NCBI GenBank assembly: GCA_913057175.1
Contig: CAJXNP010000001.1
Location: 434,001 to 498,000, forward strand
Reading direction: 5' to 3'
Origin: an uncultured Cytophagales bacterium
GTDB lineage: Bacteria; Bacteroidota; Bacteroidia; Cytophagales; Cyclobacteriaceae
DNA length: 64,000 bases
In this document: positions 3,837 through 51,317 of the stretch, one piece after another
Layout of the letters: every line of letters starts with the position of its first letter
Position numbering within the stretch: position 1 is the first letter of the stretch
Program-made: the position numbers and the translations under genes
Notes under the pieces: model-generated
The model's database searches: none
Told to the model about the DNA's origin: nothing
Seen by the model: only the letters and a program-made list of their open reading frames with translations

Positions 3837-3857
3837 GCCCGGTAAATGTTTATAAAA

Positions 3858-6800: not shown

Positions 6801-7046
6801 CCTGTCTTTACCCCAAATGGTGACGGTGTGAATGATCTATGGGTAATCGATAATAGTGAAGTATTCAACGGCTGCAACATTGTGATCATGAACAGAAACG
6901 GGCAAACTGTATATGAAGCTCCTAATTACAACAATGATTGGGATGCAAAAATGAATGGTACAGACCTTCCTGAAGAAACATATTACTACGTGATCCAGTG
7001 CAGTACAGATGAAGTTCACACAGGAAGCATCACCATCATGCGGTAA
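3858..7046 (+). CDS. secreted FG-GAP/PKD repeat protein with type B T9SS sorting domain
   Basis: About 1062 residues from the ATG at 3858, chosen because it gives a clean signal peptide (MKTFFLTTVLLSAIAMQLFAQ); an in-frame ATG at 3846 adds four residues. Residues about 25-105 form an IPT/TIG-like domain (ITGTVGQVITISGNGF). Residues about 125-490 hold FG-GAP/VCBS repeats with Ca-binding loops such as DFNGDN, DLDGDGKKD, DMDNDGKPE, DINKDGKPD and DINGDGKVD. Ig-like and PKD-like modules follow (LWDFGSDDISG). The last about 85 residues, with FTPNGDGVNDLW, NRNGQTVYE and YYYVIQCS...GSITIMR, are a gliding-motility-associated CHU_C domain, the signal for T9SS export and attachment. This suggests a large cell-surface or secreted adhesin. 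It lies 21 bp after the PorP/SprF gene and is probably co-transcribed with it. Confidence 0.9.
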   Translation: MKTFFLTTVLLSAIAMQLFAQKPDIQTINKITGTVGQVITISGNGFAGTTSQNVVFFGAAKAKVLSATNSTLEVEVPAGATFDQVSVTNTASGLTGFTSEKYLLSFNGSESINGDKLSEKLLINEEDGLFDLCACDFNGDNLNDIVTTNNRDENYSITAYINTTPENQSAIQFTRYDDNNFFLGEQTRNVACGDLDGDGKKDFIAGKGGNIADRLYLFRNISSGTAVKFDAVVSLTINIASTQASSRRIKIHDMDNDGKPEIIMTDQRNSFVHIYKNNSTPGQFNFSRDNRLLIRSDRITLGLDITDINKDGKPDIVFGSNLASDVYVAINRSNNGALNFDDAIRIPVQGQLINLTTGDFDLDGDQDIAVVNFVNNIYILLNQSSGNSVAFASPLLYETGLLPYGIDAGDINGDGKVDLVVATNEATAPLTILENKSTAGNLSFVQEEVGQLEFQRNVKIADFSGDGKPDISYTIDGINKVAFLRNQHCVDAFIRPEDPKPICAGNPSPLNATKALKVDYTWTNKSSNTTAIGSFEYGAATPGDYIVTIKSDVDACESESNEVTVVTGGSVLPPSPTVTGPDAVCQGSTLTLQSNIVSGVSYIWQAPDGNTYLGPTLQVNNASGEDAGKYSLVLEGDGCQTDPVYKSIDISIVPELEITATQGENFCEGTQNILSVANLENGTYKWYRNGQQVTGATDYKLTTGEEGSYYATFTNIYDCSSTSNTFTINKVAAPIASFDVNENACLNESVSFTNTSQVANGVEAVYLWDFGSDDISGEFQPTRTYNTPGIKPVSLTVSYGNQYCTDKSEKTITVAAIEGIAILVNDESATDSQVDLCEGDTMKLSVGETLSNIEWSNGSISHEIFVTDGGTYSVTAVAEGNSCNSSDAITVNTIDGVHVEILTERTKIKKDESIQLEATGAEEYEWTPVETLDYANVSNPIATPNVTTTYTVTGYNYLQCTGSASVEIFVEGDRTIEVDAQPVFTPNGDGVNDLWVIDNSEVFNGCNIVIMNRNGQTVYEAPNYNNDWDAKMNGTDLPEETYYYVIQCSTDEVHTGSITIMR

Positions 7047-7348: not shown

Positions 7349-10300
7349 ATGACATCAGGTTTTAGTTCTTTTTGGAATATTAAAATCACAACCTGGCTAA
7401 TCTTTTTGATCGCATTTTTAAATCTTTCAAACGCATTTGCCCAGGATCCTTTCATTCCCAAATACGATGCGGTTAAAAGATCAGAGAGATGTTTTACCAT
7501 CACTTATGATCAGGGTAACCAGTTTGGAGCTGTTTGGTTCAGGGATAAAGGGGACTTTAGTCAGGACACCGCTCTTTATTTTGTAATGTACTTTGGGCAT
7601 AAGAATAGTGACGGAGCAGATGGATTTGCCTTTGTGATGCACAATGACCCTCGCGATATAAATGTTGATCCGTCTCAAACGGTCGACATCGGCGGCGGTG
7701 GCAACTTTGATTTAGAAGCCGCAACTGGTGATGATGGTGGAGGCTTGGGATATGCCTTACATAATTCAAGGGTAAACAATAATACCATCGATGGGCCACA
7801 TCCTGATGGATCGGGTACAACCTGGAGGGACAACCACAGAATTTGGCCATCAGTTGCTATAGAATTTGACACATATTATAATGGTGATGTACAGGATGGA
7901 GCCAATAATTCTGGTGCCCCACCAGCAAGCCCATATAGTGGACAAGATCATACTTCTGTTGTCTATGATGGGGACCTGTATAATCAACAGCAAGAGATTT
8001 GGGGATACGATCAAAATGGCAATCTCTTCCAAAATCGTTTGCAACCAATTCTTCCAATTGAAGGTTGGGGATGGAACAAAGATGCGGAAGACAATAATTG
8101 CTATGCATTTAAAATTAACTGGATTGTAAATAATGACGGAACGCAAACATTAGAACTTTGGGCGGATAATTATGATCCGGACATCCTGGATGCAGAGGAT
8201 TATAACTACTACCAGGTAATGACTCATACCGATGACATGATCAATGGTGTTTTTGATGGTATCACTGATTTAAGGTTTGGTTTTACCGGTTCAACCGGCG
8301 GGCTGAATAACGAACAAACAATTTGTTTGTTAGGTGGTAACTCACGACCAACAGCACTCGATGATTTTGCATCAACGCCTGTTAATACCCCTGTAACTGT
8401 TGATGTTGAATCAAATGACAATGACTTTGATGGTGACAACTTATTTGTTCCGACCATTGTCCAGCAGGCAGATAACGGTTTTGCGGAGGTAATTTCGGTT
8501 GGTGATGACAATTTTATTCGATACACCCCTAATACAAATTTTGTTGGAACCGACACTATTCGATACAGAACGTGCGATGTGGATTCAGATAAATGTTATG
8601 CACTTTGTGATGAGGCAAATGTTATCATCACTGTAGGATGTGAAACTATTGAAATTGGTGCCAATCCACTAACACCTTATGCCCTTTGCGATCCAAATTT
8701 GACACCAAATGGGTCAGCTGAAGCTTTCTTTGTTTCCGGAACTATTGTTGGAAATGTTTGGGTAGAAACTTTTGCGGGTTTAAATGGGAATACAGCAGAT
8801 ACCGGAACAACGGCATGGGCATTTACTACTGATGGAACCTGTAATAATAGTGGTGACGATATCGATGTTGATAATGAACGCTTCAGAGCGGAAAACACCG
8901 GTTGCGAAGTAATATGGGAAACGGAAGATATTGACATCTCAACCGTTACTGATGTTGGAATTTCGATTTTCCTGGAGGCGGCAGGCGACATGGAATCAAG
9001 TGATTTCCTTGAAGTATATTATATCCTTGATGGTGGTGCAGAAACCCCTCTCACAAATGGAAGCTTCACAGACAATTTTGGTTCCTCTACTGCGACAGCC
9101 TCAGCTATAAACGGCAACTCTTTAAGGATAAAGATTTACGCTCAGAACTCTGCAAGTGGCGAGAGATATTCCTGGGACGATATTTACGTGACAGGAACAG
9201 GCGCAGGGGCGCCTCCAAGCCTGACGTACAACTGGTTTGAAGGTTCTGTTTTACCAGCAAATTCAATCGGAACAGGAGCTGTTCAATCGGGTTTGAGAGA
9301 TACTACCTACTATGTTTTTGCTACCAATCCATCCACAGGCTGTAATTCAGATACCGTTTCGGTAACGATTAGCAGCCAACCGGAGGTTGTTGATAGTATC
9401 TATACATTACAAACATCACCATTTACCACCTGCTTGCCTCCTTACGATGGATCCCTGGCAGCAGGAGTAATTGTAGATGGAGATTCAATCACATCCGGAT
9501 ATACTTTTGAATGGAGATATCTGACAGATCCCGGAGCAGCTCCTATTCGTGTTGGAGCCAATGCTACTAATCTGGAAGCATCGGAGTACATCGTTACAGC
9601 CATTAACCAGGCAACAGGTTGTTTTGCGACCAAAACTGACTCTGTTACCAATGAAGTTCGAACTCCGGAGGTCTTTCCATCAGTTATCAATGATGTTTAT
9701 TCCTGCGTTGCTGTTAATGGTTCTGTTACCGCTACCGCACAAAAAGAAGGCATTCCTTTGAATTCAGGAGTTGGGTATTTTTGGTATAATGGATTGATTG
9801 CGGATATTACTACTCCGGCAGATTACGTCGGACAGACCATTATTGACTTAGCTCCGGGTAACTACTCTGTTATTGTGATTGATAGTTCGACCATGTGTAC
9901 GTCGGAATCGCAAAACGTGAATGTCGCTGATCTCAGGCAGTTACCGCAGCCGATCATTACAAATGCCACAGATCAAATATCCTGCGACCCGAGCAATCCA
10001 ACCGGTTCATTCACTTCTGCTGTGGACAACTTATCGGGTGGAACGATGACCAGCGGATTTACTTTTAACTGGTACAGAGGGTTGAACGACGTGACACCTG
10101 CCAGACCTGGTTATACAGGCGGACCAAATGTTGATCAATTACCGGAAGATATTTACCGGTTGATCGTAGTGAATGATACTTCTGGTTGTGAGGCGATACT
10201 GGATACAGCAATTGTTGAAAATCTCGTCACTCCGACCATTGATACTGCTGTTACTACCCCTGTGAATATTTGCGGACCAAATCCAAATGGAACCATTACG

Positions 10301-13300
10301 GTAACTCCAAACGGAAACGTTGCCGATTTCGACTATCGTTTGTATGCCGGCAATGGTGTGGTTCCTGCCAATCTGATCACAGAGACCAGCTCGAATTTCT
10401 TTGATATGCTGGATATCGGAACATATACAGTTACCATTGTTGATGCTATCACAAATTGCGAAAGTCTGGGCCGGGTAGTGAATATTACGGACATGACTGT
10501 TATCCCGTTAGCGGATTTTGAAGTATTTCCACAGTATGCATGTACTCCTGCTCCACCAACAGGTCGGATTGAAGCGACCGTTACAGTAGGCTCACCTGCG
10601 GATTATACATTCGAATGGTTTGTGAATGATACTTCCGGAGCACCTGTTACTTCGACAAGAGGTGTCAACGGTGAGATCCTGGATACGCTTGCGGTAGGAA
10701 CTTATGCTTTATTGTTGACAAACAATTCTACCAATTGCCAGAATGTTTATTTCCAGAATATCGGGCAAAGCATCACCCTTCCTGTAGTAGATACAGCTTA
10801 TTCGGCGCCATCAACTTTCTGTGGCCCGAATGGCAATGGAGAATTACATGCAGCCGCAGATGCCGGTTCAACTGATCCATCTATTTTCACCTTTAACTGG
10901 ACAGATCTGGGAAGCGGATCGGTTATTTCAACATTAGCTGATGTGAATAACTTAGTGCCGGGCGACTACGAATTGGTAATTGTGAATGATACAACACAAT
11001 GTAGGTCTAATCCATATCCTGTGACGGTAGATGATGAATCCATCACCCCGGATGCCATCATTGCAGCAACGGATAACTCGTCATGTGATGTTAACAATCC
11101 AAATGGACAATTAGAGGTATCAAATGTAACGAACGAAGGCGTTTATGATCCTACCAACTATTCCTTCGAATGGTATGTCGGAAATTCAAGTGGAACCCAG
11201 TTGGTTACTCCGAATGTGTCATTCCCTAATACACCCGATAGTTCCCTGGTATTTGGATTAGCAGAGGAAACATACGCACTGGTTATCACCAACAATACTA
11301 CCAATTGTAGCAATGAGGTATTAGCGCAAATCATTGACACGAACATTAAACCTGTGTTGGATTATCCAACCATTATAGATGCGGTACGATGTACGGACCC
11401 ATATATGAGTGGTGTGGAGATTACCACAGTAAACGGTGGGCAACCAATCCCAGCCGGATATAGCTTCGAACTGGAAAATATCGGAACAGGTGATATTTAT
11501 TCTAATACAACCGGGATTTTTGAAGATTTGACAAATGCAGATGGTATCATTTTACCTCCCGGAGATTATCGTATCATCGCATTAAACTCATTCAATTGCG
11601 CATCTGACACTATTGAATTTGCAATTGACGATGATTCAACAGATCCGGTGTTTGATTTAACATCATACAACAACTCTTCCTGTGACATGACGCTGCCAAA
11701 TGGTATTGTTGTGGCATCAACGGATGGAAGTTATGGAGTCAATCAGATTGAATGGTTTATCACCAATACAAGCGGAAGCCCGGTTGTACCAACTATCCCA
11801 ACAGCTGCAATAGTCCGGGATGATTCTGTTGCCACGGGACTTTCAGGCAATACATACGCAGTTAGGCTGACTGATGAGAATGGATGTGCAAGCACAGAAT
11901 TTGCTTCAGTCTTAGATATACCTGGAAACGATCCAATCATTGATTCACTTTATGCCGAAAATCTGACTTCATGTGTGATTGATGATGGGTTGATCGGTTT
12001 GGGTGTATCACCGCTTGAACAACTTCCTCCGGATTTAATTGATAACAGAACCTATACTTTCACCATTGACAATTCAGGAACTATATTCTCAAGGTCAACT
12101 AACCCGGTTACACATCCTGATACGGTGAATTTTGTCGGTTTGGCTGATGGAGATTGGATAGCAACCGTGACGGATGATTTTACACATTGTACATCTGATC
12201 CGATAACAGTTACACTTGAAACAGCTCCTGAGATATTCTTTAATGTGAATGTCACTCCAATCGTAAGTTGCGGTGATGTAGATGGTTCTATTGAATTGGA
12301 AGCTGAGAGTCCCGGGTTCAATGAAAGACCTGGAGGTGACGGTTTTACATTTGAGTGGCATGATGGTAATTTAATTTCTGACCCTATATTATCAACAGTG
12401 ACAATCGACGACGATTGGCAAACTACGGCGAATTCCCTGGAATCGAAGTTCTATACTGTCAGGGTAACCGACAATTTTTCACTATGCTCGAAAGACACAA
12501 GCATTTTTGTGCAATCATTCAGTGTACCACTATTGCAAGGCTTAACATCAACTGATGCAACCAATTGTTCACCTAGTAATGGAAGCGCAAGTGTTGACGT
12601 AGATCCATTTTCATTCCCCGTTGGGAATAGTTACAGTGACTATGATTTCAAAATATATGAAGGCCTCTCATTTGATGCGTCAGATACTCCTTACAGAGTT
12701 ATTGAGAATCCAGTTAGTGGTCCGGTCAATTTTGCTGCCGACTTGGAGTTAGGAACCTATATCGTTGTGGCCCAGGAAGATTTTGTAGGAAGTGGTGGAT
12801 GTTATACTGATCCATTACCTTTTACCATTGGCTTAGATTTTGACTTAGAGCTTAATCCTTTTGTAGTCGTAAGTGATAGTTCATGCACAGGCGGAATAGC
12901 TACAGGAGAGCTAGATGCTTCATTTAACGATTTTACCTACAACGTTACGCAAGTGGACTACGCCTGGTATCAAGGCAACGGAACCACAGTGCCGGAAGAA
13001 GATCCTTTAAATGGCGATCCTGCAACGATCTCTGGAAAAAATGCTGGAACGTTTACGGTTGAGTTAACAGTAACCGGTGGTGATGGATTGGGATGTGTTT
13101 ATTCAGAGCCAATTAACCTTCCAAAAATTCAACCTGCTATGGCAATCAATGCCTCATTAGTTGATAATTTAAACTGTATAGGTCACAATGGAGAGGTTTC
13201 ATTGGTGGATATCAGCATTGATGGTTCAAACTTCAATTTGAATAATTTCGAAAATTTTGTCATAGATGATGAAAATGGCAACGAGATAAGTGTTGTTCCA

Positions 13301-16300
13301 AATACAGCGACAAATTGGTTGAATCTTTCACCTGGTGATTACTTTTTATCTGCTCGAAAAATTACAACACAGTGTTATACAGCCATAAGAAAGGTCACCA
13401 TCGATGATGATTCTCAAACGCCTATATTAAACATCACAATGGATTCACCTGATTTTAGCTGTAATGACATAAGCCCAACCGGGCAGCTTACCGCTATTGC
13501 GACTCCGGTTCCTGGTGGTGCATACACCTGGCAATGGACTAATTCATTAGGTGGACTGGTGGCAAGTACGGATACTCCACCAAATACATCTGTTGTATCC
13601 AACATCCAGGATGACAAATACACGGTTATTGTTACGGATAATGATGGTGATGGCATCAATGATGGTTGTTCAACAACTCGTGACTTTACACTAACACAAG
13701 GAAGCATTTCGATTGTTACACCTTTAGTTTCGCATACCGATCAGACGATCTGTGATGAAAATGCTTCTATCACAGTTGATGAAATTCGGGAAATAAGAAA
13801 TGGTACCATATTCTATACTGAATCCCCTCCTCCACTACCTGGAACTGGCTATTTTGATTTAATAGCAGAATTATACGACCAAAACTTAACAGCAATCAAT
13901 ACGGGTACAAACCCATGGGCAGCATTTCAATCGGTAGACGGTAGATTTGGTCCAACCAATGAAATACCTGTCGGAACGTATTATGTGAAATCAAGAAACA
14001 TAAGTACCGGATGTAATTTTGGACCTCCTACCCAGGTGATTGTTAAGAATGTAAGCAAAAAACCGACCATCAATATCACAATGGACAGCCCTGATTACTC
14101 TTGCAGTGACATGGCTACTCCGACCGGTGAACTTTCCGCAATTGTCTATGGTGGAAGTGATCTGGATGCTTTACAAACAAACTTTACATTCGAATGGACG
14201 GATGACTTAGGTAATCCTATAGTAGGGACTACAAATATTACTACCCTGAGTGAAGGTATATATAACCTAAAAGTAACTGATAATACCAGCCTTGATGAAT
14301 TCTGTGAAAGAACTGTTTCATTCGAAGTCACCCATGAACTACAGGAAATCATTATCGTTGATGCGGATGGAACAGATAACACTTGGTGTGAGCCCGGAAA
14401 CGGACAATTCTGGGTCAATGGACTACTGGTAAATGGAACCCTAATAGACCATATATCAGATCCCGTTGCTTTTTCAAATTATTCAGTAGATATGTTTGTT
14501 GGGAATTTAAGCACACCATTAGGACCAATGTATAATACAGGTTTATATGATGATCCTATTGATAGTCTGCATGAAAATACCCTCTATGCAATAGCCAAAA
14601 ACAATATCACTTTATGTGAATCTTATCCGAGACAGGTTATTGTTAATGATCGTTCAGAAGATCCATTGATCAGTATGACCAAGCTTTCAGATAACTACAG
14701 CTTGAATTATGACAATATCAATTCACTGACTGGTGAATTGGAAGCTGAATCTTTTGAAGCTGATGGAATGGGTAAAAGCCCTCTTGGATACTCGTATAAA
14801 TGGTATCGAAATGAAATTGTTGGAGATAGTTTATTTGCAGAAGCGAATGCAACCAATGCCGTCCAAACCCATGAATACCTTAGAGATGCCCAATATTTTG
14901 TTGAGGTTACAGATAGCCTTACCGGTTGTGTATCAACAGCTGCATTGAACCTGCCATTTGTCTATCTGAAACCGAAGTTTAATCCGGTTCCGGTAGCGCA
15001 AACACACTGTGATCCACCAAATGGAAGCATCAACATACCATCGATTTATAAAGTTTCTGATTCGACTGAAACCTTTACAAAATATGAATTCGACTGGCAT
15101 TCGGGAACATACAACCCTGGCAACCCATTCTTCCAGGAATACGGAGGAAACGGTGGCAATGCCGTCAATGGATTGACTGCGGGTAAATACTATGTTCATG
15201 CTTTGGATACCTTCTGGATGGTACAATCCGATCCGGTTCAGGTAGAAGTGGAAGACAGCACGGTTTATCCAATGATAGCCTATAATGGGTCTCTTTCTGA
15301 TGATCAGACGAGCTGTAATCCAAATGATCCGAATGGTGCGCTTGGTGTCAATGTGCCAGGATTTGACCCTTACAGTTACTCATGGTATGAAGGGCAAACA
15401 GCATCCGGAACGCCGATTGGCAGTACCAACCAGATAATTCAACAAAATGCAGGGTTTTATACCATTTTGGTAACCAATCAAACAACTGGTTGCCAGTCTT
15501 TGAGAACGTTCGAAATCCGGGACAACATGAAAATACCTGTTGTTGCAGCCAGCATGTCTCCGGTCACCAATTGTTTACCGGATCTGGCCAATGGTATTGC
15601 GACAGCAACCATCACCAATATCATCAATAGTAACTATGACTTTTACTGGTATGAAGGCATGTCTGAAAGCGGCACACCGGTTTACACCGATCTGGCAGGA
15701 GCTTTTGATTCCGAAAAAATAAACTCTGCTTATTACGACATTCCGGGTGGTTTCTACACCGTAGTGGCAAGGGATACATTTGATTGTCGATCGGATGCCG
15801 TTACCATTGAAGTTTTGGAAGACCTTACCTATCCGAAAATTGCGGTAAATGAACTGTCTCCATTGACTTACTGTGATCCTGACAGGCCAAATGCGGTCAT
15901 GTCCGCTACAGCGAATGGGCAGGTGGCCGGATATACATTCAACTGGAACATCAAAAATGGTCCGCTCTATACTTCCGGTCCGATCGTCAACAATCTGAAT
16001 GATCAACTATATACATTGGTAGTCATTAATAATACCACAGGATGTCGGTCATTCCGAGATGTTCAGCCAACTGTCGCCTACGTAAATGTTCCGGAACCTA
16101 TAGTTGATGTGTTGGATGAAATGTCGAGTTGTATTTCTCCTAATGGTCGTGCTACCAGTACCATACTCGGGCAACTGGAGGATTACTCATTCCACTATTT
16201 ACACCCGAATGGGTTCAATCCTATGACGGATAATATCAATGGAACAACCATTTCCGAGCTTGATATCAACGACTACTTTGTCTATGCCAAAGACCGAACT

Positions 16301-16873
16301 TCAGGATGTATTTCTGATACGGTAATGTTTGTGATCAATGATACAAGGTATGTGCCGGATTATGACATCATCACAGAACCTTCGATTTGTAATGAAGCTA
16401 CGGGAGAGGCTGAGGTGATCATCGGTGACCTGACCAGGCCATTTGAAGTCAGGTGGTATGACGATTATGAATCCTATGGAACAGGTCGATCTATCAATTA
16501 CAAACCAGCAGGACAATATTATGTAGCAGTTGAAGGAACAGAGGGATGTATTGATAGCACAACGACCTTTATTGGAACGGATATCATCATTTACAATGCT
16601 GTTTCAAATAACTACGATGGATTGAACGAAGCATTCTACATAGAATGTATTGACATATTCCCTGACAACAATGTGAAGATATTTAACAGAGCAGGTGAAT
16701 TGGTTTATGAAATAAATGATTACGACAGTGAAGACCCGGATAGAAGCTTTACAGGTTTCTCTAACAGGGGACCTATAAACGGTAATCAGCTTGCAATTGG
16801 TACTTATTACTATGTTGTGGACTTACAGGATGGGACCAAACCACGTGTAGGGTTCCTGGAATTAAAACGCTAA
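7349..16873 (+). CDS. giant secreted lectin/repeat protein with type B T9SS C-terminal domain
   Basis: A 3174-residue surface protein. Signal peptide about 1-32 (ending NLSNAFAQ). Residues about 33-325 resemble an L-type (legume-like) lectin: DGADGFAFVMHNDP, VAIEFDTYYNGD and LRFGFTGSTGG are typical carbohydrate-binding beta-sandwich segments. Residues about 330-430 are a cadherin/Ig-like module (PTALDDFASTPVNTPVTVDV, then NFVGTDTIRYRT). After this I count about 26 units of roughly 90-110 residues, each opening with Cys-x-x-x-(P)NG text such as CGPNPNGTI or CDVNNPNGQL and closing with a second Cys after a Y-x-V/L-x-V strand. The C-terminus (VKIFNRAGELVYEI, then GTYYYVVDLQ and GFLELKR) is a CHU_C domain in which the usual FTPNGDG is replaced by NAVSNNYDG. 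More than 20 D-S/T-A/I/L/V/M/T triplets, the Bacteroidota O-glycosylation motif, are present. The gene is followed after 4 bp by its likely PorP/SprF partner. Confidence 0.9.
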   Translation: MTSGFSSFWNIKITTWLIFLIAFLNLSNAFAQDPFIPKYDAVKRSERCFTITYDQGNQFGAVWFRDKGDFSQDTALYFVMYFGHKNSDGADGFAFVMHNDPRDINVDPSQTVDIGGGGNFDLEAATGDDGGGLGYALHNSRVNNNTIDGPHPDGSGTTWRDNHRIWPSVAIEFDTYYNGDVQDGANNSGAPPASPYSGQDHTSVVYDGDLYNQQQEIWGYDQNGNLFQNRLQPILPIEGWGWNKDAEDNNCYAFKINWIVNNDGTQTLELWADNYDPDILDAEDYNYYQVMTHTDDMINGVFDGITDLRFGFTGSTGGLNNEQTICLLGGNSRPTALDDFASTPVNTPVTVDVESNDNDFDGDNLFVPTIVQQADNGFAEVISVGDDNFIRYTPNTNFVGTDTIRYRTCDVDSDKCYALCDEANVIITVGCETIEIGANPLTPYALCDPNLTPNGSAEAFFVSGTIVGNVWVETFAGLNGNTADTGTTAWAFTTDGTCNNSGDDIDVDNERFRAENTGCEVIWETEDIDISTVTDVGISIFLEAAGDMESSDFLEVYYILDGGAETPLTNGSFTDNFGSSTATASAINGNSLRIKIYAQNSASGERYSWDDIYVTGTGAGAPPSLTYNWFEGSVLPANSIGTGAVQSGLRDTTYYVFATNPSTGCNSDTVSVTISSQPEVVDSIYTLQTSPFTTCLPPYDGSLAAGVIVDGDSITSGYTFEWRYLTDPGAAPIRVGANATNLEASEYIVTAINQATGCFATKTDSVTNEVRTPEVFPSVINDVYSCVAVNGSVTATAQKEGIPLNSGVGYFWYNGLIADITTPADYVGQTIIDLAPGNYSVIVIDSSTMCTSESQNVNVADLRQLPQPIITNATDQISCDPSNPTGSFTSAVDNLSGGTMTSGFTFNWYRGLNDVTPARPGYTGGPNVDQLPEDIYRLIVVNDTSGCEAILDTAIVENLVTPTIDTAVTTPVNICGPNPNGTITVTPNGNVADFDYRLYAGNGVVPANLITETSSNFFDMLDIGTYTVTIVDAITNCESLGRVVNITDMTVIPLADFEVFPQYACTPAPPTGRIEATVTVGSPADYTFEWFVNDTSGAPVTSTRGVNGEILDTLAVGTYALLLTNNSTNCQNVYFQNIGQSITLPVVDTAYSAPSTFCGPNGNGELHAAADAGSTDPSIFTFNWTDLGSGSVISTLADVNNLVPGDYELVIVNDTTQCRSNPYPVTVDDESITPDAIIAATDNSSCDVNNPNGQLEVSNVTNEGVYDPTNYSFEWYVGNSSGTQLVTPNVSFPNTPDSSLVFGLAEETYALVITNNTTNCSNEVLAQIIDTNIKPVLDYPTIIDAVRCTDPYMSGVEITTVNGGQPIPAGYSFELENIGTGDIYSNTTGIFEDLTNADGIILPPGDYRIIALNSFNCASDTIEFAIDDDSTDPVFDLTSYNNSSCDMTLPNGIVVASTDGSYGVNQIEWFITNTSGSPVVPTIPTAAIVRDDSVATGLSGNTYAVRLTDENGCASTEFASVLDIPGNDPIIDSLYAENLTSCVIDDGLIGLGVSPLEQLPPDLIDNRTYTFTIDNSGTIFSRSTNPVTHPDTVNFVGLADGDWIATVTDDFTHCTSDPITVTLETAPEIFFNVNVTPIVSCGDVDGSIELEAESPGFNERPGGDGFTFEWHDGNLISDPILSTVTIDDDWQTTANSLESKFYTVRVTDNFSLCSKDTSIFVQSFSVPLLQGLTSTDATNCSPSNGSASVDVDPFSFPVGNSYSDYDFKIYEGLSFDASDTPYRVIENPVSGPVNFAADLELGTYIVVAQEDFVGSGGCYTDPLPFTIGLDFDLELNPFVVVSDSSCTGGIATGELDASFNDFTYNVTQVDYAWYQGNGTTVPEEDPLNGDPATISGKNAGTFTVELTVTGGDGLGCVYSEPINLPKIQPAMAINASLVDNLNCIGHNGEVSLVDISIDGSNFNLNNFENFVIDDENGNEISVVPNTATNWLNLSPGDYFLSARKITTQCYTAIRKVTIDDDSQTPILNITMDSPDFSCNDISPTGQLTAIATPVPGGAYTWQWTNSLGGLVASTDTPPNTSVVSNIQDDKYTVIVTDNDGDGINDGCSTTRDFTLTQGSISIVTPLVSHTDQTICDENASITVDEIREIRNGTIFYTESPPPLPGTGYFDLIAELYDQNLTAINTGTNPWAAFQSVDGRFGPTNEIPVGTYYVKSRNISTGCNFGPPTQVIVKNVSKKPTINITMDSPDYSCSDMATPTGELSAIVYGGSDLDALQTNFTFEWTDDLGNPIVGTTNITTLSEGIYNLKVTDNTSLDEFCERTVSFEVTHELQEIIIVDADGTDNTWCEPGNGQFWVNGLLVNGTLIDHISDPVAFSNYSVDMFVGNLSTPLGPMYNTGLYDDPIDSLHENTLYAIAKNNITLCESYPRQVIVNDRSEDPLISMTKLSDNYSLNYDNINSLTGELEAESFEADGMGKSPLGYSYKWYRNEIVGDSLFAEANATNAVQTHEYLRDAQYFVEVTDSLTGCVSTAALNLPFVYLKPKFNPVPVAQTHCDPPNGSINIPSIYKVSDSTETFTKYEFDWHSGTYNPGNPFFQEYGGNGGNAVNGLTAGKYYVHALDTFWMVQSDPVQVEVEDSTVYPMIAYNGSLSDDQTSCNPNDPNGALGVNVPGFDPYSYSWYEGQTASGTPIGSTNQIIQQNAGFYTILVTNQTTGCQSLRTFEIRDNMKIPVVAASMSPVTNCLPDLANGIATATITNIINSNYDFYWYEGMSESGTPVYTDLAGAFDSEKINSAYYDIPGGFYTVVARDTFDCRSDAVTIEVLEDLTYPKIAVNELSPLTYCDPDRPNAVMSATANGQVAGYTFNWNIKNGPLYTSGPIVNNLNDQLYTLVVINNTTGCRSFRDVQPTVAYVNVPEPIVDVLDEMSSCISPNGRATSTILGQLEDYSFHYLHPNGFNPMTDNINGTTISELDINDYFVYAKDRTSGCISDTVMFVINDTRYVPDYDIITEPSICNEATGEAEVIIGDLTRPFEVRWYDDYESYGTGRSINYKPAGQYYVAVEGTEGCIDSTTTFIGTDIIIYNAVSNNYDGLNEAFYIECIDIFPDNNVKIFNRAGELVYEINDYDSEDPDRSFTGFSNRGPINGNQLAIGTYYYVVDLQDGTKPRVGFLELKR

Positions 16874-16877
16874 GAAA

Positions 16878-17813
16878 TTGAAAAGACTAATTAAACTCAT
16901 CCTGATAATGGTTGCTTTTTTGGGCCTGGCAGAAGTCATGGCTCAGCAAAGACCTGTCATTTCTCAATATATGTTGAATGGACTGGTGTTAAACCCAGCC
17001 TATGCGGGAAGGCATGAATATTCGTCTTTCTCTGTCATGTATCGTGACCAATGGGTAAATGTACCCGGAGCTCCAAAATTGGCAGTTGCAAGTGCTCAAA
17101 CAGGTTTTAAGGGAAAGAAAATCGGAGTTGGCTTATTATTGGCCAATGATGCTCTTGGAATGCACGATAACCAAAGCGTGTATGCCAGCTATGCCTACAA
17201 TCTTGAGTTAATCAATGGTGGTAAGATATCAATGGGTGTTCAGGCAGGTTTTGACCGATTAAGGGAAGATCCTAATGTATTGAATATCCGGGACGACGGT
17301 GACAGTCAATTTGCGGGAGTGAACGTCAGGTACCTTCCCAATTTTGGAACAGGCGTTTTTTATCATGATGACTATAATTATCTGGGTGTATCCGTTCCTT
17401 ACATATTATCAAACAGAGATGTACAAAACGAAGAATTCACTGAGATCTACAAAATGCCCAGGTATTATTATGTAACCGCTGGAAGACTAATCGAAGCTGG
17501 ACCTCGACTGATCATTAAACCGTCCATGCTTCTAAGAATCCAGGAGCAAAATCCATTTGCATTTGATGCGAACATCAATTTCTACATTGATGATATTATT
17601 GGTTTAGGAGCTTCTTATAGATTTGGTGATAGTGTGATCGGGATATTCGAATTCCAGATCAACCAATTCATTAAATTCAGCTATGCTTACGACTATGTAT
17701 TTTCCAATTTAACCCAGTTCACCAAAGGTACACATGAACTGATGCTGAATTATCGTATCAATTTCTCAGCACCGAGAAAACATAGAATGTGTCCTGGTCC
17801 TTTGTACTTTTAA
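16878..17813 (+). CDS. PorP/SprF family T9SS outer-membrane protein
   Basis: A 311-residue protein of the standard PorP/SprF length. The signal peptide (MKRLIKLILIMVAFLGLAEVMAQ) needs the TTG at 16878 as start; the first in-frame ATG lies inside the hydrophobic segment and would destroy it. Family features are QQRPVISQYMLNGLVLNPAYAG, then RDQWVNVPGAPKLAVASAQT, then beta-barrel strands to TKGTHELMLNYRINF. In Flavobacterium johnsoniae the gene after sprB, sprF, is needed to export the giant adhesin SprB. By analogy this protein probably serves the 3174-residue cargo directly upstream. Only 4 bp separate the two genes, so translational coupling is plausible and would fit the weak TTG start. Confidence 0.92.
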   Translation: MKRLIKLILIMVAFLGLAEVMAQQRPVISQYMLNGLVLNPAYAGRHEYSSFSVMYRDQWVNVPGAPKLAVASAQTGFKGKKIGVGLLLANDALGMHDNQSVYASYAYNLELINGGKISMGVQAGFDRLREDPNVLNIRDDGDSQFAGVNVRYLPNFGTGVFYHDDYNYLGVSVPYILSNRDVQNEEFTEIYKMPRYYYVTAGRLIEAGPRLIIKPSMLLRIQEQNPFAFDANINFYIDDIIGLGASYRFGDSVIGIFEFQINQFIKFSYAYDYVFSNLTQFTKGTHELMLNYRINFSAPRKHRMCPGPLYF

Positions 17814-44606: not shown

Positions 44607-47600
44607 ATGAGCAATAGTACATTTGTCAGACGATGTTATGCCACAGTTATTGCCTTAATTTTTATTTTTTTCGCTCAGATTTCATATGGTCAGAATGCGC
44701 CAGCTGGGGAGAAAGAAAAATCTACGGGGATTGACATTATTATTACACAATCTCCAAAGATTATCGTAAAGGTTGAAGCGGTAACGGATAACAAGTGCTT
44801 TGCAGAAAGCAAAGGTGCGATCAATATTTCAGCTAGTGGAGGATACCCTCCCTATAAATATCACTGGTCGCACGGTGATACCACCCAGGATGTAGCCGGT
44901 TTGAAAGCCGGTAAATACCGGGTTGCTGTTTATGATAACTTTAGCTGTAGTGATACCTTGACAATCGAGATCAAGCAGCCGGAAAAGCTTCTTGCTGATA
45001 TTGAATCTGTTAAGGATATCTTATGTTACGGATACAAAAACGGTGAAGTCAATATCAATGTATCAGGTGGTAAGCCACCATACACTTATAGCTGGAACAA
45101 CGGTGAGACTACTCAGGATTTAAAGGAAGTCAATTCAGGCCGATATTCAGTATTAATTACGGATGCCAATTCCTGTCAGGAAATCATCACGGCAGACGTG
45201 GAAGAAAAGCCACTGATTGTCAGATCCTTAGACGATGTCCAAAACATACTCTGTCATGGGGACACAACGGGAAAAGTTGATATCACGGTTAGTGGTGGGG
45301 TTCCTCCTTATACCTATTTATGGAACAACGGGACCACCACGGAAGATCTGGCAGGCGTAATAGCGGGGACATACGATGTCACCGTCAAAGACTCTGAAGG
45401 ATGTACGGAAGTTTCAACTACCAAAGTGGTTGAGCCAGCAGCTCTTTCTCTATCTTTTGATGAAGTAAGAAATCTTAGCTGTTTTGGGGACCTCGGTGGT
45501 GCCATCAACATCAAAGTGGAAGGTGGGAAAGTTCCTTACACTTATAAATGGAATAATGGCCTTGCCACACAAGATATTGCTGGTATTCCGGCCGGAAAAT
45601 ATCATGTTGATGTAACGGATAAAAACGGATGTAAAGCTGAGATCAGCACAGAAATTTCGCAGCCAAATGCTTTACTTGTAAACCTCAAAAATTCAAAAAA
45701 CATTTCTTATTACGGTGGTGAGGATGGAGCGATTGACATTGAAGCAACAGGTGGTATTCCTCCCTATGTTTACAAATGGAATAATGGTTCTGAAAACCAG
45801 GATTTAAGCGGTTTAAAATCAGGTAGTTACACAGTAAGGGTAACAGATGCTTCCGGTTGTGCAAAAATCATGAACGTGACGCTTACGCAACCCACTCCGC
45901 TTATCGCAAAACTGGATAACACCAAAGACATTAGCTGCTATGGAACCAGTACAGGTGAAATTAATATTTCCGTACTAGGTGGAGTTCCTCCTTATAAATA
46001 TGTGTGGAGCAATGGTGCAACAACCCAGGACGTAGCCAATCTTCCTGCGGGGGATTACTCTGTACGAGTCATCGACGCTAACAATCACGAACAATTAATA
46101 GAAGCATCACTTTCTCAACCCGATGAATTTACTGCTCAGATTGTCGGAACGACTGATATCAAATGTAATAGCAATAATACCGGGGCTATTGACCTGGAAG
46201 TTCAGGGTGGTGTGTTGCCTTACAAATACCGATGGAGCAATGGTCAGTCAACTCAGGATCTAACCAATGTATTGGCGGGTTCTTATTCCGTTAAAGTCAT
46301 TGATGCTAACTTCTGTGAACTGGAACTGTCAGCCTCTATTTCTGAGCCGGATCCACTTGAGCTTAGCTTTGAGAACATCACTCATATCAATTGTTTCGGA
46401 CAAAGCACCGGTGCAATCGACCTGACTGTTACGGGTGGAGCTTCTCCTTATAAATATGCCTGGAATAACGGATCTGACACTCAGGACCTGAAAAGCATTA
46501 AAGCAGGAGAATACTCGGTCAACGTAACCGATGCAAACGGATGTGTAAAGGTTCTTTCAACTACCATCAACGAACCTCAATTGCTTTCATTGAAAGAAAA
46601 TTCTGTTCAGAATATAGATTGTAAAGGAAATAGTACCGGTTCGATCAGTATCGAAGTTTTTGGTGGTGTGAAGCCTTACAGTTATGCATGGAACAATGGC
46701 GCTGCCAGCAAGGATATTTCCAATCTGACAGCTGGTGATTATAGTGTGAAAGTCACTGATGCAAACGGATGTACAACTTCCTATTCAAAGACAATCACTG
46801 AACCTGCTCAGCTGGTTCGATCGCTGGAGGATGTCACCAATATCCTTTGCTATGGTGACCTAAAAGGAGCCATCAATATCAATGTTTCCGGAGGAGTTGA
46901 ACCTTACTCTTATCGATGGAGCAACGGCGCCATGACCCAGGATGTCGTAAATCTGAAAGCAGGAAACTATTCGGTAATGATCCGGGATGCAAATGGTTGT
47001 ACAGATTCATTAAGCGCAACGGTAAAGGAAAACCCAAGATTGACGGCAACAGCCGCAGTAACAGATATCAAGTGTTACGGGCAAAAATCAGGCGCAGTTA
47101 ATCTTTCTGTTGCAGGTGGAGTAGCTCCCTATACATATCTGTGGAGCAATGAGGCTACCTCACAAAGCATTACTCAGATCGGTGCGGGCAACTATTCCGT
47201 TTCTGTGAAAGACTCTAAGGGTTGTCAAATCAATGTAGATGCTACGGTCAGTGAGCCACCAAGATTCATCGCCAGCCTGGAATCCGATACGGATATCCTT
47301 TGTAATGGTGAAAATACAGGATCTGTTAGCGTACGTGTGAGTGGTGGTGTAACTCCATATAACTTTAAGTGGAGTAATGGCGAAACTACTCAAAACCTAA
47401 CCAATACCGCAGCAGGTGACTATACCCTGACGGCTACTGATGCTAATGGCTGTCTGCAGACGGTATCCACTACATTGACTCAGCCTTCAGCCATCGATTT
47501 CTCTGTTAAATCCGTTACGAATGTACTTTGCTATGGCGATAATGGCGGAGCAATAGATATCTCCGTTGCGGGTGGTGTCGGACCTTTCACATATAAATGG

Positions 47601-50600
47601 TCAAACGGAGCAACCACGCAGGACCTTGAAACGCTCAAAGCTGGTAAATATTCCGTTCAGATTGTGGATGCCAATGGCTGTGCAAAAACGCTGGATGCAG
47701 AAGTTACTCAACCGGAATTGCTAAGCCTGAATATAGACTCAGTTGTAAACATTTCTTGTCATGGAGATTTAACAGGTTCAATTGATCTGAATGTAGAAGG
47801 CGGTGTAGCGCCTTATAAATATAGCTGGAGCAATGGATCATCCACCCAGGATATTTCCAAGCTACCGGCAGGGAACTATTCTGTAACCGTAACGGATGCA
47901 CACGGTTGTTCCAAAACGATCGGTGCGGCAGTTAAGCAGCCACCTTTATTGGCTGCAAAAATTACAGATGTAAAAGACATTTTGTGCTATGGCAACGAAA
48001 CCGGAGCGATCTCAATTGATGTGATTGGCGGTGTGAAGCCATACAAATTCAAATGGAGCAGTGGCGAAACAACTCAAAACCTTGTTGACGTTGTAGCCGG
48101 AAACTATACGGTAGAAATCACGGATCAGATGGGTTGTTCACAGACATTATCTGCCATTATCACTCAGCCGACAAAACTGACTGCTTCGCTTGCTTCTGTA
48201 AATGATGTATCATGTTTTGAAGGAAGCAATGGTGCTGTGAATATCACAGTCGTAGGTGGGACTGCTCCTTATAAATATTCTTGGAGCAACGAGGCTTCTA
48301 CCCAGGATCTGGAAAATGTTGTGGCCGGAAGGTACCAGGTGAAAATTGTAGACCAGAAAGGATGTAAAGATTCAGCTATTATTGCTGAGGTGAAAGAACC
48401 AACTTTGCTTGAGGTAAAACTGAACGGTGTTACGAACATCCAGCAATATGGACAACATACTGGTGCAATTGACATTACCGTTTCGGGTGGTGTCGCTCCT
48501 TATATTTACAGTTGGAGTAACGGCGCTACCACACAGGACATTTCGAAAGTTCCCGGTGGGGATTACTCCGTAAATGTACGTGATGCAAATGGATGTGAGA
48601 AGAGAGTAGATGCTTCCATCTTACAGCCTCCTCCATTGGTGTTGACCATTCAAGCACAGGAAGATATCATGTGCTACGGTGACAAAACAGGAAGTATTGA
48701 TATTGATGTGAAAGGTGGTGTTCCTCCATACAAATTTGCATGGAGCAATGGAAAAACGACTCAGAACATCGCTGATGTTGCGGCTGGAGATTATACGGTT
48801 ACGGTAACAGACGCTAACGGACATCAGCAGTCGATGAGCACAAAGATCGCCCAGCCATCTCAACTATTAGTGAAACTGGATGATGTGAATAACCTGAGGT
48901 GTTTCAACGATGGATCAGGATCGATCAGCGTGACAACAACAGGTGGTATTGCACCTTATAAATATTCATGGAACTCCGGTCAGACAGCGCAGGATATCGA
49001 TCAGCTTTCTGCTGGCGATTATACCCTGACAGTGACAGATAGCTATAACTGTCAAAACATCCTTCAGACGAAGGTAACTCAACCGGACTCATTCAAACTT
49101 GACCTGGCAAATATCAATCACATCAACTGTTTTGGTCAGGCAGAAGGAGATGTAAGCATCAATGTCAGTGGCGGAACATTGCCTTATAGCTTTAACTGGA
49201 GCAATGGCGAACGGTCAAAGGATATTGAAAACGTACTTGCCGGAGAATACAGTATTCGCGTGAATGACGCAAATGGATGTGAAAATACAATGGATGTTAA
49301 AATCGAACAGCCAACTGAATTGGTCGCCAGCATCGGCGAAGTAAACAATAACCTGTGTAGCGGTGAAAGCAAAGGTTCGATCAGCCTCAGTATTTCAGGA
49401 GGGTCTACACCATACACTTTTGCCTGGAGCAATGGCGCTACCACGCAGGATATCAGCGACCTGCCAAGCGGCAAATACAGTGTGAGTATTACCGATGCCA
49501 AAGGTTGTACGAGAGAATTATTTGCTGAAATTACCGAACCGGAATTGTTGATGGCATCCATTTCTGATGTCTCCAATGTAAACTGCTTCGGAAATAATAC
49601 AGGTAGCATTTCCGTAGATGTTTCAGGCGGTGTTGTTCCTTACTCTTATATCTGGAACAACGGTTCTGCTCAGAAAAACCTTATTGGTATCCCTGCAGGT
49701 GACTATCAAATGTCCGTGAAAGATGGAAATGGTTGTGTCAAAACCGTATCCACGACCATCACACAGCCGGATGTATTGTCATTGGGAATCGACTCTATCA
49801 ATCATGTTTTGTGCTACGGTGATAACAAAGGCTTCATTGATATCAATGTGACTGGTGGTGTTTATCCATACAATTATACCTGGAGTAATGGTTCACAGGG
49901 CGAAGACCTTGTCAATGCACTTTCTGGGACTTATTCTGTAAAAGTAAAAGATGTAAACGGTTGTGAAGAAACACTGCAGGCGACTATCGAGCAACCAGCT
50001 AACCTGTTGGTTACACTCGATTCCATTAATAACATCAGCTGTTCGGGTGACGAGACCGGTTATGTGAGAATTAAGGCGAATGGAGGTAAAGCACCTTACT
50101 CTTATCTTTGGAATAATGGTGTGACGTCCAATGAGTTGAAGAATGTTGTCGCTGGTATTTACCGGGCAACCATTACTGATGCAAACGGATGTATCACGAC
50201 CTTCGAAACGGAAATCACACAGCCTTCACCATTAGTGAAGACGATCGATGCCATCACAGATATTCGTTGTAACAGTGACAGCACAGGAGCCATCCAGGTT
50301 TCAGTGATGGAGGGTGTGCAACCCTATTCATTCAGCTGGAGCAATGGTGCAGCTACGGAGGATATCAGAGGACTGACTGCCGGCAACTATAAGCTGACCA
50401 TTACGGAAGGTAACGGTTGTCAGAGTGTATTGGAAGCAACTATCGAGGAACCACCAGCATTCTACGCTTCTATTGATGAAGTAGTTGATGTGAATTGCTA
50501 TGGCGCGATGACCGGATCGATCGACATCTCGGCATCGGGTGGTGTGGAGCCATACATGTACGCATGGAGCAACGGCGCAGAAACACAGGATATCAGTGAG

Positions 50601-51317
50601 ATCGGTGCAGACAGTTACTCAGTTATGGTGACGGATGGCAACGGATGTTTGAATACGCTTAATGCTGAAATCGTTGAGCCACCATTGCTAACATTGAGAA
50701 TTGACTCAGTGCATAACGTAAAATGTTGTGGTGATAACAGTGGTGCGATCTTCATTACCGTTGAGGGTGGTGTGAAGCCATACAAATACGACTGGAGCCA
50801 TGGTGCAACAACCGAGGATATCGAAAACCTTGTATTAGGTGTTTATACGGTCAATGTAACGGATGCGAACGGTTGTGTCGTGACTACTCCTGATGACATG
50901 ACACTTTACGAGCAAGTGGTGTCTAAAGGTAGATTTACTACCAGGGATATCCTCTTTGATGTTGGGAAATCGATCATCAAGCCTGAGTCCTTTACGACCA
51001 TCAACAGAATTGCAACGTTCATGAAAGAACATCCGGATATCTCATTCCGAATTGACGGACATACGGATAGCGACGGATCTGCAGAGTCTAACCAGCAGTT
51101 ATCACTGGACAGAGCAAGGGCGATTCGTTTAGCGCTGATCAAGTTCGGTATACGTGAGAACCGACTGGATACAAAAGGTTTCGGAGAGTCGAGCCCACTT
51201 GTACCAAATACCACTGCTGAGAACAAATCACTCAACAGAAGGGTAGAATTTATCGCCCTGACCGGTACGATCGAGGGAACGAAGATTGAATCCGAAGGCG
51301 TACAATTACAGGATTAA
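44607..51317 (+). CDS. SprB-repeat rod protein with C-terminal OmpA-like domain
   Basis: A 2236-residue protein. Signal peptide residues 1-29 (ending AQISYGQ), a 26-residue leader, then 27 tandem units of about 76 residues (about 56-2107). The consensus is I-x-C-Y-G-x-x-x-G-x-I-x-I-x-V-x-G-G-V-x-P-Y-x-Y-x-W-S-N-G-x-T-T-Q-D, then L-x-A-G-x-Y-x-V-x-V-x-D-A-N-G-C. These are SprB repeats (PF13573), Ig-like beta-sandwiches found in the F. johnsoniae adhesin SprB. Residues about 2120-2222 are an OmpA-like peptidoglycan-binding domain (FRIDGHTDSDGSAESNQQLS, RARAIRLALI, LNRRVEFI). There is no CHU_C or type A T9SS domain and no PorP/SprF gene beside it. Each repeat keeps two Cys except units 5 and 17 (first missing) and 6 and 18 (second missing). 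Confidence 0.93.
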   Translation: MSNSTFVRRCYATVIALIFIFFAQISYGQNAPAGEKEKSTGIDIIITQSPKIIVKVEAVTDNKCFAESKGAINISASGGYPPYKYHWSHGDTTQDVAGLKAGKYRVAVYDNFSCSDTLTIEIKQPEKLLADIESVKDILCYGYKNGEVNINVSGGKPPYTYSWNNGETTQDLKEVNSGRYSVLITDANSCQEIITADVEEKPLIVRSLDDVQNILCHGDTTGKVDITVSGGVPPYTYLWNNGTTTEDLAGVIAGTYDVTVKDSEGCTEVSTTKVVEPAALSLSFDEVRNLSCFGDLGGAINIKVEGGKVPYTYKWNNGLATQDIAGIPAGKYHVDVTDKNGCKAEISTEISQPNALLVNLKNSKNISYYGGEDGAIDIEATGGIPPYVYKWNNGSENQDLSGLKSGSYTVRVTDASGCAKIMNVTLTQPTPLIAKLDNTKDISCYGTSTGEINISVLGGVPPYKYVWSNGATTQDVANLPAGDYSVRVIDANNHEQLIEASLSQPDEFTAQIVGTTDIKCNSNNTGAIDLEVQGGVLPYKYRWSNGQSTQDLTNVLAGSYSVKVIDANFCELELSASISEPDPLELSFENITHINCFGQSTGAIDLTVTGGASPYKYAWNNGSDTQDLKSIKAGEYSVNVTDANGCVKVLSTTINEPQLLSLKENSVQNIDCKGNSTGSISIEVFGGVKPYSYAWNNGAASKDISNLTAGDYSVKVTDANGCTTSYSKTITEPAQLVRSLEDVTNILCYGDLKGAININVSGGVEPYSYRWSNGAMTQDVVNLKAGNYSVMIRDANGCTDSLSATVKENPRLTATAAVTDIKCYGQKSGAVNLSVAGGVAPYTYLWSNEATSQSITQIGAGNYSVSVKDSKGCQINVDATVSEPPRFIASLESDTDILCNGENTGSVSVRVSGGVTPYNFKWSNGETTQNLTNTAAGDYTLTATDANGCLQTVSTTLTQPSAIDFSVKSVTNVLCYGDNGGAIDISVAGGVGPFTYKWSNGATTQDLETLKAGKYSVQIVDANGCAKTLDAEVTQPELLSLNIDSVVNISCHGDLTGSIDLNVEGGVAPYKYSWSNGSSTQDISKLPAGNYSVTVTDAHGCSKTIGAAVKQPPLLAAKITDVKDILCYGNETGAISIDVIGGVKPYKFKWSSGETTQNLVDVVAGNYTVEITDQMGCSQTLSAIITQPTKLTASLASVNDVSCFEGSNGAVNITVVGGTAPYKYSWSNEASTQDLENVVAGRYQVKIVDQKGCKDSAIIAEVKEPTLLEVKLNGVTNIQQYGQHTGAIDITVSGGVAPYIYSWSNGATTQDISKVPGGDYSVNVRDANGCEKRVDASILQPPPLVLTIQAQEDIMCYGDKTGSIDIDVKGGVPPYKFAWSNGKTTQNIADVAAGDYTVTVTDANGHQQSMSTKIAQPSQLLVKLDDVNNLRCFNDGSGSISVTTTGGIAPYKYSWNSGQTAQDIDQLSAGDYTLTVTDSYNCQNILQTKVTQPDSFKLDLANINHINCFGQAEGDVSINVSGGTLPYSFNWSNGERSKDIENVLAGEYSIRVNDANGCENTMDVKIEQPTELVASIGEVNNNLCSGESKGSISLSISGGSTPYTFAWSNGATTQDISDLPSGKYSVSITDAKGCTRELFAEITEPELLMASISDVSNVNCFGNNTGSISVDVSGGVVPYSYIWNNGSAQKNLIGIPAGDYQMSVKDGNGCVKTVSTTITQPDVLSLGIDSINHVLCYGDNKGFIDINVTGGVYPYNYTWSNGSQGEDLVNALSGTYSVKVKDVNGCEETLQATIEQPANLLVTLDSINNISCSGDETGYVRIKANGGKAPYSYLWNNGVTSNELKNVVAGIYRATITDANGCITTFETEITQPSPLVKTIDAITDIRCNSDSTGAIQVSVMEGVQPYSFSWSNGAATEDIRGLTAGNYKLTITEGNGCQSVLEATIEEPPAFYASIDEVVDVNCYGAMTGSIDISASGGVEPYMYAWSNGAETQDISEIGADSYSVMVTDGNGCLNTLNAEIVEPPLLTLRIDSVHNVKCCGDNSGAIFITVEGGVKPYKYDWSHGATTEDIENLVLGVYTVNVTDANGCVVTTPDDMTLYEQVVSKGRFTTRDILFDVGKSIIKPESFTTINRIATFMKEHPDISFRIDGHTDSDGSAESNQQLSLDRARAIRLALIKFGIRENRLDTKGFGESSPLVPNTTAENKSLNRRVEFIALTGTIEGTKIESEGVQLQD

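Follow-up and report, generated by a model that had tools for sequence, protein, structure and literature searches.

Of 149 genomes that we sampled from the class, 130 have above-cut-off matches to SprB repeats, the immunoglobulin (Ig)-like modules of the SprB gliding adhesin. Two findings on Bacteroidota envelope proteins serve as reference points here. The side chains of PorE Asp576, Asn584, and Arg591 bind a peptidoglycan fragment (PMC7192894), and the periplasmic GldK track has SprF and PorG attached to it by disulfide bonds (Liu et al. 2025; PMC12635249), a type of linkage between periplasmic proteins that the authors note as rare. Here we describe a gene, which we refer to as SprB27-OmpA, in a 64,000-nucleotide window of contig CAJXNP010000001.1 from an uncultured Cytophagales bacterium. 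The encoded protein joins 27 SprB repeats to a C-terminal OmpA-like domain, the repeat number is the same in every intact ortholog, and the pattern of cysteine loss points to disulfides between neighboring repeats.

An initial annotation, made from the sequence alone, had placed 27 SprB repeats and a C-terminal OmpA domain in 44607-51317, and Pfam bears this out: 27 stretches match PF13573 (968 bits, E 2.9e-300, cut-off 28), and PF00691 matches at aa 2116-2211 (E 1.4e-21). The forward-strand open reading frame has an ATG start and encodes a Sec signal peptide, a 17-residue linker, the 27 repeats, the OmpA domain, and a tail of ~20 aa that varies among orthologs, some having only a short one or none. 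Repeats recur every 76 aa, except for one period of 75 and one of 77. Because the repeats average only 42% amino acid and 56% nucleotide identity (maximum 64% nucleotide), they are, judged by their sequences, old and diverged copies. The features are as follows.

44607..51317, + strand: SprB27-OmpA gene, 2236 aa (sequence, Pfam, 16 further intact orthologs).
44607..44690, + strand: predicted Sec signal peptide, about aa 1-28 (...AQISYG/QNAP, cleavage site inferred from sequence), lacking a lipobox Cys at that site.
44742..50897, + strand: 27 SprB (Ig-like) repeats, aa 46-2097, period 76 (Pfam, repeat alignment).
44946..44948, + strand: Cys69 of repeat 1 (C114), invariant and partnerless in the proposed inter-repeat disulfide scheme (ortholog alignment).
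45708..45710, + strand: Cys19 position of repeat 5 (Y368), Cys lost in 17/17 (ortholog alignment).
46086..46088, + strand: Cys69 position of repeat 6 (H494), Cys lost in 17/17; with Y368, the putative unstapled joint 5/6 (ortholog alignment).
48444..48446, + strand: Cys19 position of repeat 17 (Q1280), Cys lost in 17/17 (ortholog alignment).
48822..48824, + strand: Cys69 position of repeat 18 (H1406), Cys lost in 17/17; with Q1280, the putative unstapled joint 17/18 (ortholog alignment).
50724..50729, + strand: twin cysteines C2040-C2041 of repeat 27 (SVxNVKCCGDxSGAI), invariant (ortholog alignment).
50952..51239, + strand: OmpA-like domain, probably peptidoglycan-binding, aa 2116-2211; D2154, N2162, and R2169 invariant (Pfam, ortholog alignment, PMC7192894).
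51341..51368, + strand: intrinsic terminator-like hairpin, 24 bp past the stop codon (consensus match only).

With repeat 27 plus the OmpA domain as the query, about 295 genomes of the window's own family (f1) yielded 13 further carriers, 12 with a long frame and one broken (G003), and an order-wide search of 390 genomes found carriers in two further families (G038, G098, G138, G177, G189, and G227). A scan of named genomes found an ortholog in Reichenbachiella versicolor DC003, also of the Cytophagales, and no other SprB-OmpA fusion among the best 80 loci. Orthologs were found only within the order Cytophagales; a class-wide set of 395 genomes contained no such fusion at E below 1e-35. The tree parts f1 from f3 and f16 with full support, the lineages being well separated, and the history of the gene is thus consistent with ancient vertical inheritance and many losses. 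Two loci call for caution. The G003 ortholog (L017/L046, contig C240) has in-frame stops at a contig end of a draft genome and may be a pseudogene or an assembly error, and the carrier labeled "Rickettsiales bacterium" (L062, PBTY01000081.1) is probably a mislabeled metagenome-assembled genome with a Cytophagales gene. Our full-length set comprises 17 intact copies, the window copy and 16 that come from further genera and span three families of the Cytophagales; the readable parts of two copies outside it, one truncated at the edge of its contig (L051) and one with a frameshift (L059), match the same plan.

All 17 intact copies have exactly 27 repeats, with lengths of 2211-2243 aa, and only 4 of about 2,050 columns in the repeat region of their alignment contain gaps, while the orthologs are 47-61% identical to the window protein. 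Repeats at the same position in three same-family orthologs share 54-61% mean identity vs 41-43% for nonorthologous repeats. Two control proteins behaved otherwise. For an SprB protein encoded on contig C10 of this genome, relatives in the same family have frames of about 834-1480 aa among the longer hits, some of the shorter ones probably being contig fragments, and in another family a type IX secretion system (T9SS) protein carries 37 repeats in three species (L171, L173, and L182) vs 41 in a congener (L175), a change that is recent as judged from about 90% C-terminal identity. The evenness of the period is unusual among SprB arrays, yet two other arrays are also very even. Since 27 beads and a near-identical cysteine map have been kept across families, the length of SprB27-OmpA seems to matter, which suggests a role as a strut, ruler, or tether.

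The cysteines carry the second part of the argument. Both Cys19 and Cys69 are present in 23 of the 27 repeats of the window protein, and the map is nearly identical across the intact copies: Cys19 is gone from repeats 5 and 17, and Cys69 from repeats 6 and 18, in 17/17. Two orthologs of one genus (L054 and L055) have a further joint loss at 19/20, so that Cys19 of one repeat and Cys69 of the next were lost together in three events in this family, with zero single losses. The same coupling appears in 56 SprB arrays of other proteins (both lost, one or the other lost, both kept: 3/7/3/720; odds ratio 103, p 3.6e-5), although the p value is approximate, as overlapping loci may count some arrays twice, the joint losses stem from only two proteins (L169 and L011), and the losses are few under a stricter coupling count. 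In these unrelated arrays, the paired losses lie in repeats 3-6 of L169 (747-aa frame) and repeats 2-3 of L011 (3171-aa frame). At the array ends, Cys19 is missing from the last repeat in 11/56 and Cys69 from the first in 3/56, compared with 5 and 4, respectively, among 677 interior repeats. Losses of the opposite kind at the ends are rarer but still present (first repeat without Cys19, 5/56; last without Cys69, 2/56). N-terminal arrays that keep the first-repeat Cys69 also carry an additional N-terminal Cys; L178 lacks both.

In the AlphaFold2 (AF2) model of repeats 3-8, Cys19 lies directly after strand A and Cys69 directly before strand G, which would put them at opposite ends of a bead and let them meet across the joint of an end-to-end chain. 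Given the coupled losses, the array-end patterns, and these strand positions, SprB repeats are most likely stapled by disulfides between Cys19 of one repeat and Cys69 of the next, and the coupling in other arrays suggests that such bonds are general to the SprB family. We did not adopt three other accounts. A disulfide between Cys19 and Cys69 within a repeat disagrees with the strand ends and the array ends, and its table (0/5/4/668) has no joint loss in 677 interior repeats. The reverse pairing, Cys69 of one repeat with Cys19 of the next, showed no significant coupling (p 0.14). A 12-repeat higher-order duplication behind the 5/6 and 17/18 losses had a lag-12 signal of only 1.7 SD.

Applied to the window protein, the staple scheme gives 24 staples, free joints at 5/6 and 17/18, and three leftover cysteines, C114 in repeat 1 and C2040/C2041 in repeat 27. 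None of these varies among the 17 copies, and no ortholog has a further mature N-terminal or C-terminal Cys. Being invariant and unpaired within the chain, they predict intermolecular disulfides or a covalent partner; a link to the GldK track is a lead only. Conservation among the repeats peaks at repeat 27, with a mean pairwise identity of 68%. The last three repeats (R25-R27; window 50214-50897, aa 1870-2097) have family-wide oddities, EGV for GGV, TEGNGC, ADSYSVMV, and KCCGD, and this stretch beside the OmpA domain is a possible partner site.

The C-terminal domain is likely to bind the wall, because the triad D2154, N2162, and R2169, invariant in 17/17 together with GHTD...NRRVEF, has the same spacing as PorE Asp576, Asn584, and Arg591. 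We found no signal that would take the protein further. No C-terminal T9SS sorting domain of type A or B (CHU_C/TIGR04131, Por_Secre_tail/TIGR04183) was found, and at the C terminus, in searches with the whole protein and with its last 142 residues, the best 25 of 43 listed hits were all OmpA-type families; a subthreshold PF18962 match lies inside the repeats, at aa 1058-1099. Pfam detected no outer-membrane barrel family, and the N-terminal part, where OmpA/OprF porins have their 8-strand barrel, consists entirely of SprB repeats. No ortholog (0/17) has a lipobox Cys at the expected cleavage site, as Pal/YiaD lipoproteins do, and the scores fall below the TIGR02802 and NF053611 cut-offs. The full-length PorE model gave 60.7 bits against a cut-off of 600, matching the OmpA part alone, and the plan of inverse autotransporters (intimin type), in which a wall-binding module and a barrel precede the Ig rod, does not apply, as the module order is reversed and the barrel is absent. 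The periplasm is therefore the simpler reading of the sequence, given a Sec signal, a probable wall-binding C terminus, and no outer-membrane signal.

The genome has 8 PorP/SprF genes, the neighbor expected for an SprB-type gliding adhesin, but none adjoins SprB27-OmpA, so the reported absence of a barrel, a type A/B sorting domain, and a PorP/SprF neighbor holds. The window does contain two PorP/SprF genes (2286-3836 and 16878-17813), each beside its own CHU_C protein, 27-42 kb upstream. Both belong to T9SS type B pairs: at 2286-7046, PorP/SprF fused to an SPOR domain with a CHU_C protein of 1066 aa (FG-GAP, PKD), and at 7349-17813, PorP/SprF with a CHU_C protein of 3174 aa (L-type lectin, cadherin/Ig). 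The genome carries T9SS and gliding genes, including GldK; a GldJ-like gene scored below cut-off. Looking for co-occurring transport genes, as the initial annotation had proposed, gave no conserved operon or transporter-like neighbor across genera of the window's family. Five loci in families f16 and f3 (L057, L058, L060, L056, and L045) encode a second OmpA-domain protein on the same strand, no more than about 600 bp away, of 236-249 aa in f16 and of 792 aa with two OmpA-like motifs in G038; none was seen in f1. The genes nearest to SprB27-OmpA run in the opposite orientation and a hairpin follows its stop codon, so it is probably monocistronic; promoter hits were not above those in shuffled sequence.

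We put at about even chances the reading that SprB27-OmpA is a fixed-length, wall-anchored periplasmic strut. Sec would export the protein, and the exit-end Cys19 of each Ig-like bead would bond to the entry-end Cys69 of the next, giving a stiff stapled chain. The unstapled joints 5/6 and 17/18 would divide it into three rigid segments, 5, 12, and 10 beads long. At the C terminus, the OmpA domain would grip the wall peptide, and the protein, having no outer-membrane export signal, would remain periplasmic, probably flat along the wall. It could then act as a strut or tether of defined length from the wall to a partner at the N-terminal tip (C69 of repeat 1), at the neck (the twin Cys of repeat 27), or both. 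Several points weigh against this. Ig beads are about 4 nm long, so 27 in a straight line would reach ~100 nm, several times the periplasm; such a rod must lie flat along the wall, bend, or enter an outer-membrane extension, and the unstapled joints would help it bend. The AF2 models do not establish straightness, as their predicted template modeling (pTM) scores are low: 0.53 for repeats 3-8, where the predicted local distance difference test (pLDDT) is 90, and 0.33 for repeat 16 to OmpA, where it is 78. Other long SprB arrays with a readable C terminus mostly end in T9SS domains, the usual place of SprB repeats thus being the cell surface, and the gene is sporadic, so its function is not core.

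The topology puzzle raised by the initial annotation is real, as a long array and a peptidoglycan-type OmpA end come with no known outer-membrane export signal. Its proposal of an unusual cell-wall-anchored surface fiber fares differently in its two halves: the triad argues for the anchoring, while no sequence feature speaks for the surface. We consider it unlikely that the rod crosses the outer membrane N terminus first, by an unidentified route, with the OmpA domain held at the wall. Such a fiber would suit a rod longer than the periplasm, SprB repeats being elsewhere typical of secreted T9SS proteins, a genome with T9SS and gliding genes, and a best solved structural match, GhpA, that is a cell-surface appendage; but surface export would have to proceed without a C-terminal sorting domain, a barrel, a dedicated PorP/SprF beside the gene, or any transporter-like neighbor kept across the genera of its family. 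Known retained fibers of the LapA and intimin types use signals that SprB27-OmpA is without.

Equally improbable in our estimate is an ordinary envelope protein whose length is unselected because its repeats are too diverged to recombine. Divergence to a mean of 56% and a maximum of 64% nucleotide identity would indeed lower slippage, and two other arrays share the very even period. Against this reading stand the near absence of even one-residue indels in about 2,050 columns at 47-61% identity, the size variation of two comparable SprB proteins, and the conservation of specific joints, end cysteines, and R25-R27 features. Those end cysteines could also make the protein a polymer, with C69 of repeat 1 paired with the R27 or R1 Cys of another copy, or closing a ring, to form a wall-attached filament or girdle or a link to the GldK track. 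C69 of repeat 1 and the repeat 27 pair are invariant in 17/17, with no in-chain partner and no other N-terminal Cys; T9SS N-terminal arrays pair their first-repeat C69 with an extra N-terminal Cys, L178 missing both; and SprF and PorG are tethered to the GldK track by disulfides between separate periplasmic proteins (PMC12635249). This support is indirect, C19-C20 of repeat 27 could instead pair with each other as a vicinal disulfide or bind another target, and we regard the polymer as very improbable. We also see a slim chance that stapled, wall-anchored rods of fixed length with two programmed hinges join, by way of the invariant unpaired cysteines at both ends, into a covalent filament, ring, or girdle, or couple to the Bacteroidota track, as a new periplasmic cytoskeleton-like class.

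Beyond the initial annotation, the strongest facts are the 27 repeats fixed over three families, the near-invariant cysteine map, and the apparent disulfides between neighboring repeats. If the staples form, widespread SprB repeats would be covalently joined bead to bead, which would explain rods that bear force in gliding and adhesion. If the strut is real, Bacteroidota would own a set-length, wall-anchored Ig strut undescribed in the open papers searched, where we found no account of a protein with SprB repeats and OmpA or of Ig adhesins with interdomain disulfides. The invariant unpaired cysteines would in turn predict covalent assembly in the periplasm, a compartment in which such bonds were recently shown to join clients to the moving gliding/T9SS track (PMC12635249).

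Compared with known systems, SprB27-OmpA shares the repeat family, the tandem Ig-like rod, and the Sec signal peptide with the SprB gliding adhesin and other T9SS SprB proteins (PF13573), but those that we read mostly end in a sorting domain and those compared vary in size, whereas SprB27-OmpA ends in OmpA after a fixed 27. By sequence, solved structures gave only weak matches, to GhpA and phage Ig domains; by structure, the closest are fragments of Aureispira GhpA (9flw, 9flp; Foldseek E 4e-16), with a VIA Z of 11.6 and a root-mean-square deviation of 6.4 over 429 residues at 15% identity. GhpA has 5898 aa and 15-20% identity, and the match points to a comparable chain of Ig beads, not to a common function. 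Pal, YiaD, OmpA/OprF, PorE, and MotB have the same kind of C-terminal domain with the D/N/R wall-binding triad; unlike them, SprB27-OmpA carries a 27-Ig rod and no lipid anchor, barrel, or transmembrane helix, and it falls below every listed NCBIfam equivalog cut-off. With the GldJKN/PorKN track and its SprF/PorG clients, which is periplasmic, bears force, and uses twin or free Cys for intermolecular disulfides (PMC12635249), it may share location and bonding, but it is a sporadic accessory gene with no known sequence relation to the track.

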